From contig DAIDHQ010000041.1 of NCBI GenBank assembly GCA_027459645.1, forward strand, positions 1-49,118: a stretch of 49,118 bases of DNA, written 5' to 3'. The translations under genes and the position numbers were made by a program. A model generated the notes under the pieces. The model was not told the origin of the DNA. It was given only the letters and a program-made list of their open reading frames with translations, and did no database searches. Source of the DNA: Vulcanimicrobiota bacterium (GTDB taxonomy: Bacteria > Vulcanimicrobiota > Vulcanimicrobiia > Vulcanimicrobiales > Vulcanimicrobiaceae). Below are positions 30,818-43,879 of the stretch, piece by piece. Each line of letters begins with the position of its first letter. Within the stretch, counting starts at the first letter, position 1.

Positions 30818-32751
30818 TCCGCCGCCTGTTGATCGCCAATCGCGGCGAGATCGCCGTCCGGGTTGCACGCGCCGCGCGCGAAATGGGTATTTCGCCGGTC
30901 GGCATCTACTCGCTAGCCGATGCTGATGCATACCATCTGCAGTTTATGGATGACGCACGCTGCGTCGGACCGGCAGCCGCAACCGAATCGTATTTGAACG
31001 TCGACGCGGTCGTCACCGCGGGCGTCGATATGAAAGCGGACGCCGTTCATCCGGGATACGGCTTTCTTTCCGAGCGTGCCGGTTTCGCGCGCGCGGTGCA
31101 AGATGCCGGAATGATTTTCGTGGGTCCGTCGCCCGACGCGATGGCCGCCATGGGCAGCAAAATCGACGCTAAACGGCGCGTGCGGGAATTCGACGTTCCG
31201 ACCGTGCCGGGCTACGACGGCGACGACCAATCGCTTCCGACGCTGCGTCGCGAAGCGGAACGCGTCGGTTTCCCGCTCTTGATCAAAGCGAGCGCGGGAG
31301 GCGGCGGACGCGGCATGCGCGTCGTCGAAAAGCTGGATACGTTCGACGAATCGCTCGCTGCAGCAAAGCGCGAAGCGCTCGCGGCGTTCGGCGACGATGC
31401 CGTGCTATTGGAGCGCTATCTGCGCGAGCCGCGGCACATCGAATTCCAAGTGCTCGCCGACGCGCACGGCGCGACGATTCACCTGGGCGAACGGGAATGT
31501 TCGATCCAGCGGCGCCATCAGAAGATCGTCGAGGAAGCGCCATCGGTCGCGCTCTCACCCGAACTGCGCGCGACGATGGGTGCCGCTGCGGTGCGCGCGG
31601 CGAAATCGGTGAACTACGTCAACGCCGGCACCGTCGAATTCATGCTCGATGGCGACGGCGCGTTTTACTTCCTCGAAATGAACACCCGCCTACAAGTCGA
31701 GCATCCGGTTACGGAGCTGGTGTACGGCGTCGATCTGGTGCAGTGGCAGTTACGCATCGCAAACGGCGAACGGCTCACGATCTCGCAGGATGACGTGCGA
31801 CCGCGGGGCTGGGCGATCGAAACGCGCGTCTATGCCGAGGATCCGGCGAACCACATGCTGCCTTCGACCGGAACGATCTCCGCATGGGTCGCGCCCGAGG
31901 GTCCGGGCGTGCGTTTGGATTCCGGCGTCACGGCGGGCAGCGAGGTCAGCGTCTATTACGATCCGATGCTCGCGAAGCTGATCGTGTTCGGAAGCGATCG
32001 TGCGCATGCGATCGCGCGCATGGACCGCGCGCTCGAAGATTTCCGCATCGACGGCGTGCGAACGAACCTTCCGCTGCTGCTGTGGATCGTGCGCGACGAG
32101 TGGTACCGCGAAGGCCGCACCACGACGAGCTTCCTGGCCCACCGATTGAACGAATCGATCTTCCGCGCGCAGGAGGTTCCGAAAGAAGCGCTGCTGCTGA
32201 TGGTAGCGGCGATTCTGCAGCGAGGCGCGGCGCCTTGGCGTTTGGGCGGCGTGGGTATGCCGCTGCGCCTGCAGCACGGCGATACGATCTCGACGACGAC
32301 GGCGAGCATCACGCAGGATCCGCATCGTTTCAGGGTTGCCGGAGCGCTCGAAGGCGAACTGGCGATTCGCGGGGGCGGCGCGCAACTGCACGCAGAGCTC
32401 GGCGATTTGCGCGCCACCGGCACCGTGAGCGAAGGCGCGGGCGAATGGATTGCGCGAATCGGCGAACGTTCGTACGCATTTGCGCCGGCAGCGCCGCCCA
32501 GCGCGCATGCATCCGGCGCTCATGCGGGCGCGGGAAGCGACGGGCGCATTACCGCACCAATGCCCGGAAAGATCGTGAAGATCGCCGTGCGAGACGGCGA
32601 ATCGGTCTCCGAGCACGCACTGCTGCTGGTGCTCGAAGCGATGAAGATGGAACACCGCATCGAAGCGTCGGCGGCTGCGACCGTCCGCTCCGTCCTCGTC
32701 AAAGAAGGCGATATCGTCGCAGGCGGCGCGCCGCTCGTGGAACTAAGCTAA
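30814..32751 (+). CDS. mccA: Methylcrotonoyl-CoA carboxylase, alpha (biotin) subunit
   Basis: A 645-aa biotin-dependent carboxylase subunit. The biotin carboxylase domain (about 1-450) begins LLIANRGEIAVRVARAAREMG and has HPGYGFLSERA, the ATP-grasp loop KASAGGGGRGMRVV, ECSIQRRHQKIVEE, FLEMNTRLQVEHPVTE and GHRIE-like RGWAIETRVYAEDP. A linker follows, and the C-terminal biotinyl domain (about 570-645) carries the EAMKMEH biotin site. It carboxylates biotin with ATP and bicarbonate for the MccB subunit encoded 5 kb upstream. The neighbouring HMG-CoA lyase and enoyl-CoA hydratase favour MCC over acetyl- or propionyl-CoA carboxylase. Confidence 0.88.
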   Translation: MIRRLLIANRGEIAVRVARAAREMGISPVGIYSLADADAYHLQFMDDARCVGPAAATESYLNVDAVVTAGVDMKADAVHPGYGFLSERAGFARAVQDAGMIFVGPSPDAMAAMGSKIDAKRRVREFDVPTVPGYDGDDQSLPTLRREAERVGFPLLIKASAGGGGRGMRVVEKLDTFDESLAAAKREALAAFGDDAVLLERYLREPRHIEFQVLADAHGATIHLGERECSIQRRHQKIVEEAPSVALSPELRATMGAAAVRAAKSVNYVNAGTVEFMLDGDGAFYFLEMNTRLQVEHPVTELVYGVDLVQWQLRIANGERLTISQDDVRPRGWAIETRVYAEDPANHMLPSTGTISAWVAPEGPGVRLDSGVTAGSEVSVYYDPMLAKLIVFGSDRAHAIARMDRALEDFRIDGVRTNLPLLLWIVRDEWYREGRTTTSFLAHRLNESIFRAQEVPKEALLLMVAAILQRGAAPWRLGGVGMPLRLQHGDTISTTTASITQDPHRFRVAGALEGELAIRGGGAQLHAELGDLRATGTVSEGAGEWIARIGERSYAFAPAAPPSAHASGAHAGAGSDGRITAPMPGKIVKIAVRDGESVSEHALLLVLEAMKMEHRIEASAAATVRSVLVKEGDIVAGGAPLVELS

Positions 32752-43528: not shown

Positions 43529-43558
43529 TTGACAGGGGCCCGGCCCGCCACGTATAAT
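43529..43558 (+). promoter_or_regulatory. Consensus sigma-70 promoter of the tRNA-Ala unit
   Basis: TTGACA (43529-43534), 18 bases, TATAAT (43553-43558): both hexamers match the consensus exactly. Transcription should start near 43565 and run through the three 61-bp repeats into tRNA-Ala. Confidence 0.85.
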
Positions 43559-43590
43559 CCCTCGCGTTGCCCTAAACCCGGGGGCATCGC

Positions 43591-43767
43591 GCTGTCATCC
43601 TGAGCGAAGCGTACGAAGTACGCGAAGTCGAAGGATCGCAACGAGATCAACGCTGTCATCCTGAGCGGAGTGTACGAAGTACGCGAAGTCGAAGGATCGC
43701 AACGAGATCAACGCTGTCGTCCTGAGCGGAGCGTACGAAGTACGCGAAGTCGAAGGATCGCAACGAA
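43591..43767 (+). repeat. Three tandem copies of a 61-bp repeat in the tRNA leader
   Basis: Copies start at 43591, 43652 and 43713 (period 61); the third is cut at about 55 bp. Each reads GCTGTCATCCTGAGCG, then a palindrome GCGTAC-GAA-GTACGC, then GAAGTCGAAGGATCGCAACGA. Copy 2 has GTGTAC in the left arm, which keeps pairing through a G-U wobble. ATCCT/AGGAT on the flanks can extend the hairpin. CTGTCATCCTGAGCG...GTCGAAGGAT resembles dispersed intergenic repeats seen in several phyla. Confidence 0.85.
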
Positions 43768-43770
43768 CGT

Positions 43771-43846
43771 GGGGATGTAGCTCAGCTGGTAGAGCACTTG
43801 CTTCGCATGTAAGGGGTCAGGAGTTCGAGTCTCCTCATCTCCACCA
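43771..43846 (+). tRNA. tRNA-Ala (anticodon CGC)
   Basis: A complete 76-base cloverleaf with encoded CCA. Acceptor GGGGATG pairs with CATCTCC and has the G3-U70 wobble that identifies alanine tRNA. The D arm is GCTC...GAGC, the anticodon stem CTTGC/GTAAG with loop TTCGCAT (anticodon CGC, reading GCG), and the T arm AGGAG-TTCGAGT-CTCCT. GCG codons are frequent in this high-GC genome. Confidence 0.96.
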
Positions 43847-43850
43847 ATTG

Positions 43851-43879
43851 AAAAAAGCCCGATTTTATCGGGCTTTTTA
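43851..43879 (+). terminator. Intrinsic terminator of the tRNA-Ala unit
   Basis: AAAGCCCGA-TTTTA-TCGGGCTTT with flanking A and T runs, starting 5 bases after the tRNA. The stem is palindromic enough to work also for the leftward serine hydrolase gene that ends at 43928. Confidence 0.85.

Follow-up and report, generated by a model that had tools for sequence, protein, structure and literature searches.

Tandem copies of a dispersed, REP-like palindrome separate a tRNA-Ala(CGC) gene from its promoter in a Vulcanimicrobiaceae bacterium

The window, meaning the whole stretch of DNA that was analyzed, comprises 49,118 nucleotides of contig DAIDHQ010000041.1 (assembly GCA_027459645.1) from a Vulcanimicrobiota bacterium of the family Vulcanimicrobiaceae. 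At positions 43529 to 43878 it carries a sigma-70 promoter, three tandem 61-bp units, a tRNA-Ala(CGC) gene and a terminator (Table 1), bearing out the single unit drawn in the first-pass annotation. The -10 box lies 212 nt from the tRNA and, if transcription starts about 7 nt past this box, the leader is about 205 nt long, in agreement with the earlier description of a leader of roughly 200 nt consisting mostly of repeats. The 61-nt units occupy positions 43590 to 43772 at spacings of 61 and 61 nt. Relative to copy 1, identity is 97% for copy 2 and 87% for copy 3, in which the last few bases depart from the unit. The array has a TRF score of 333 and is therefore not a chance arrangement. The 17-nt spacers between units are identical, both of them, which argues for tandem duplication of the 61-bp unit rather than separate insertions. 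In copy 1 the element comprises the tag TGTC, the outer stem ATCCT/AGGAT, an inner hairpin and the tail CGCAACGA. The inner hairpin GCGTAC-GAA-GTACGC, noted earlier for each unit with a G-U wobble in a variant copy, is present in copies 1 and 3; the variant is copy 2, which has GTGTAC and hence one G-U pair. Elsewhere in the window, TRF reported a 14-nt tandem repeat at positions 31994 to 32032 (2.9 copies of GCGATCGCGCGCAT).

Table 1. Features of the tRNA-Ala(CGC) transcription unit, in window coordinates.
Feature	Position	Strand	Details
Sigma-70-type promoter, tRNA-Ala gene	43529..43558	+	TTGACA 43529-43534, 18 nt, TATAAT 43553-43558; 12 of 12 consensus positions
Native leader remnant CCCTCGCGTTGCCCTAAAC	43559..43577	+	Matches CCCTCGCGTTGCCC-AAAC in congener G001
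REP-like element, copy 1	43593..43645	+	Repeat family; consensus and ends from 85-99 genome copies
REP-like element, copy 2	43654..43706	+	One G-U pair in inner stem
REP-like element, copy 3	43715..43767	+	Head GTCGTCC; unit spacer missing ahead of tRNA
tRNA-Ala, anticodon CGC, CCA encoded	43771..43846	+	ARAGORN; Rfam RF00005, 65.8 bits
Intrinsic terminator	43852..43878	+	12-bp stem, 3-nt loop, T-run

The tRNA-Ala(CGC) gene is 100% identical in eight other genomes. The promoter arrangement TTGACA-18-TATAAT, with all 12 consensus positions, was found upstream of the orthologous tRNA in G001, G019 and G021, and near-identical hexamers (11 of 12) were found in G003 and G012. In this promoter comparison, which leaves out several genomes with poor or no matches in the automatic scan, the -10 box was located 15 to 17 nt ahead of the tRNA in seven genomes (G003, G012, G011, G019, G021, G025 and G026), compared to 212 nt here. 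In G010, inspection by eye placed TTGACA/TACAAT about 26 nt before the tRNA. The conservation of the promoter position in other genera upholds the earlier proposal that a consensus promoter drives the unit. The leader remnant CCCTCGCGTTGCCCTAAAC is similar to the complete 15- to 17-nt stretch between the -10 box and the tRNA in several genera, and the base preceding the mature 5' end is a T, as in the relatives compared. The congener G001 has a 105-nt gap between the -10 box and the tRNA, filled with unrelated single-copy sequence, and G002 has a gap of 53 nt. The G001 leader was considered as a diverged copy of the array, and this was rejected since it has no head or tail motif of the element and occurs at a single place in its genome. 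An element tail 4 to 34 nt before the start of tRNA-Ala was observed in the window's own genome only (1 of 149 genomes of the phylum). Given this single occurrence and the short or repeat-free leaders of the relatives, the array is best explained as a lineage-specific insertion. In G002 related elements precede the promoter, and in G003 they follow the tRNA at a distance of about 155 nt.

Within its own genome (3,143,885 bases, 3.14 Mb; 96.6% complete), the array used as a BLAST query matched 70 places. The exact 13-nt head of the element, GTCATCCTGAGCG, occurs there 96 times (50 forward and 46 reverse) compared to 0 times for the reversed control, and with up to one mismatch it occurs 163 times (control, 1). 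The 96 exact heads fall into 61 clusters, in both orientations. The consensus of the element is TGTCATCCTGAGCG-nAG-[stem]-GAA-[stem']-nAGnCGAAGGA(T/C)CGCAACGA, with the conserved span running from TGTC to about GGA(T/C)CGCAACGA (99 heads and 85 tails), and a short spacer added to the roughly 53 nt of the element accounts for the 61-bp period. The first A-T pair of the outer stem is missing in copies that end in GGACC. Tandem copies away from tRNAs in the same genome are 62, 63, 65 and 70 nt apart. The density of exact heads is uneven, at 10 to 16 per 100 kb on contigs C18, C36, C19, C10 and C13 and 1 to 2 per 100 kb on contigs C22, C28, C30, C32 and C40. At four loci, L062 (C6:8312), L065 (C6:221537), L094 (C28:21282) and L095 (C28:109082), the main element's hairpin contains a smaller second palindrome, GTCACCCTGAGCTTGTCGAAGGG or a variant of it.

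Genes were called with a simple codon-model caller made for this analysis, which is approximate and ignores tRNAs. By these calls, 78 of the 96 exact heads are intergenic while approximately 79% of the sequence is coding. The 63 intergenic heads that could be classified comprise 32 in convergent gaps, 28 in tandem gaps and 3 in divergent gaps; the array in the window was scored as tandem by the caller, though the tRNA and the gene beside it are transcribed divergently. For comparison, 7 of the window's own 18 gaps are divergent. Close neighboring heads are inverted in 25 of 47 cases. Only 2 of 46 tRNAs are near an element cluster, the element being located in the leader of one and downstream of the other, and on this count the idea that the element prefers tRNA genes was rejected. 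The only other cluster-adjacent tRNA is a tRNA-Asn (L097:1249-1324), with related elements, at 1395 and 1525, that begin about 70 nt downstream. The genome-wide count and survey of neighbors called for in the first-pass annotation thus describe a dispersed family, and its suggestion that the leader is a landing site for such an element is supported by the 96 exact heads, the repeat-free short leaders in relatives and the tail found in 1 of 149 genomes.

Across the phylum, the exact head is present in 81 of 149 genomes with a patchy distribution. Within the window's own family the count per genome ranges from 0 to 104, and a single genus holds both extremes (G013 with 0 and G112 with 104). In G010, eight tandem heads with a spacing of about 57 to 59 nt were observed at C1:68593-69015, a larger array of the same kind. 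In G001, some inverted element pairs (L120, L130 and L132) seem to lie on either side of a hairpin resembling a terminator, AAAGCCCG...CGGGCTTT; a regular-expression scan for such a composite of inverted pair and terminator found it in 3 of 11 pairs in G001 and in 0 of 19 in the window's own genome. A search of plasmids for the element returned no match, as did a search for the exact hairpin version in named genomes, which may have excluded near records. A literature search for GTCATCCTGAGCG did not return it, and shorter pieces of the motif gave papers that were off topic by title.

The inner stems vary widely in sequence and length among copies and are mostly self-complementary, with the head and tail being shared. 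Among copies matched for core length, pairing is seen at 86.8% of arm positions, compared to 72.4% with the arms swapped among copies, and none of 5,000 shuffles was as high. Changes on both sides were found at four pairs in the 44-nt class and at five pairs in the 42-nt class. The covariation scores were 0.307 (44-nt class) and 0.427 (42-nt class) compared to shuffled means of 0.091 and 0.138, figures that are inflated by related copies and that stand beside slid controls of at most 0.18. Pairing is therefore maintained family-wide, regardless of orientation or neighbors, and, being a property of the element family, this covariation cannot be read as selection on the tRNA leader RNA. At one orthologous site (L143:1517, plus strand, in G001; L098:1514, minus strand, in the window's own genome), the stems are GGTGC-GAA-GCACC and GCGCC-GAA-GGCGC, respectively, which amounts to three double changes in five pairs and zero single changes, with the flanking element almost unchanged. 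At another orthologous site (L138/L068), the inner stem is wholly missing in G001. The stem replacement at L143/L098 is suggestive of conversion or template switching. Hairpins are reported to be both generated and preserved by DNA template switching (PMC8794818), so that selection is not needed, even on the element. The G-U wobble of copy 2 had been taken to hint at selection on RNA structure; it is a single change and proves nothing, and the strong covariation is genome-wide and can arise by template switching in the absence of selection.

We consider it very probable that the array is a tolerated passenger, in which an element inserted between the promoter and tRNA-Ala(CGC) and was then tandem duplicated, with the leader being removed by RNase P. 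This reading builds on the dispersed family, the array being present here and absent in relatives, the tandem copies with identical spacers and the conserved promoter. In this lineage, one copy of the element would have inserted downstream of the promoter and ahead of the tRNA, and the 61-bp unit would then have been tandem duplicated twice. The promoter at 43529 presumably still drives the tRNA, with transcription expected to start shortly past 43558 and to run through to the terminator, giving a precursor with a predicted leader of about 205 nt and three hairpins. RNase P would most likely cleave before 43771 and dispose of the leader no differently from a short one, and any effect of the array should be small at most and confined to precursor stability. 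Three points run counter to this reading: the insertion is in a divergent gap, a placement otherwise avoided by the family (3 of 63 heads); the hairpin is intact in all three copies of the array; and long leaders recur at this gene, those of G001 (105 nt) and G002 (53 nt) being expanded too.

Other readings give the hairpins more to do. It is conceivable, though rather unlikely, that the inner stem is a cassette renewed as a unit, its palindrome being maintained by conversion or template switching, and that in the leader it may tune maturation of the precursor. Less probable still is an array that is functional in the precursor, its stable hairpins slowing or gating RNase P or RNase E and so tuning the CGC isoacceptor of tRNA-Ala. 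Its location wholly within the predicted transcript, 3' of a conserved promoter, and the retention of hairpins in all copies favor such a function; however, none of the other genomes searched, the congener included, has the array at this position, and, since hairpins are intact in most copies everywhere and in both orientations, their intactness here is nothing special. In folding predictions, single units fold only modestly better than shuffled sequences (z scores of -1.1 to -1.9), and the whole transcript with tRNA and terminator included reaches a z score of -4.3. The structure of the tRNA region is identical in the full-length and isolated folds, so no mispairing between leader and tRNA is predicted, which also speaks against a function in the precursor. 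Very improbable is the release of a stable small RNA from the leader, the tRNA gene acting as a carrier; the leader is structured and the promoter strong, but the leader differs between two species of one genus, it gave no match to Rfam covariance models (riboswitches, T-boxes and small RNAs), and the only family scoring at the gathering level in the window was RF00005, that of tRNA. Both roles floated in the first-pass annotation, in tRNA processing and as a small RNA, thus find no comparative support, since the array is not conserved even between members of the genus. The reading of the repeats as a regulatory array particular to this tRNA, with no relation to mobile or dispersed elements, was suggested by the tandem arrangement at one gene and is refuted by the 96 exact heads genome-wide and many more across the family's genomes.

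Read as a tolerated passenger, the array is a real observation of an ordinary kind; what is unusual is the place where this dispersed palindromic repeat sits. It offers a clean natural case of a dispersed palindrome inserted, apparently harmlessly, downstream of the promoter of a tRNA gene and ahead of its mature end, and a caution that covariation in a leader may stem from a repeat family and not from leader RNA function. The interest of the locus lies mostly in the stem turnover of the family. With many different, still-pairing stems and without a known transposase, this family is well suited to studying how palindrome symmetry is kept up in bacteria.

Compared with bacterial tRNA precursors that have short leaders, the unit likewise comprises a promoter, a tRNA and a terminator and has a T before the mature 5' end; it differs in that the inserted array extends the leader to about 200 nt, compared to about 8 to 10 nt predicted for most relatives. 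With the GTAG REPs and REPINs of RAYT systems, the element shares a dispersed distribution, palindromic structure, inverted pairs and patchy counts among relatives, but its end is without GTAG. A search for Y1_Tnp (PF01797) was positive in control genomes and found none in the window's own genome, where a gene may have been missed at 96.6% completeness, nor in the element-rich relatives G001, G006, G010 and G022; a RAYT/IS200 transposase was accordingly rejected as the mobilizer. The closest comparison is with the CGTC-tagged REP super-family described by Di Nocera, De Gregorio and Rocco in 2013 (PMC3733652), whose members have an unpaired CGTC, TGTC or CCTC tag at one end, a single 8- to 9-bp stem with A/T opening pairs, a 4- to 5-nt loop, a tail that is mostly CCA and a length of 20 to 40 nt, and for which TGTC is listed as a common change of the tag (PMC3733652). 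Like these, the element has an unpaired tag, TGTC (of 99 copies, 97 have T before GTC and 2 have C), and an outer stem that opens with A/T pairs in many copies; it is high copy, intergenic, frequently in inverted dimers and mostly 3' of genes, and the PF01797 search found no dedicated transposase for it. Unlike them, it has a two-part stem with a 5-bp outer part, internal bulges and a variable inner part of 0 to 12 bp, a loop of mostly 3 nt, a tail (CGCAACGA, consensus GCAACGA after GGA(T/C)C) that is not CCA, and a length of about 53 nt in the array. As the stem, loop and tail depart from the definitions of the CGTC-tagged REPs, we describe the element as REP-like, related to them in kind rather than a proven member of their super-family.
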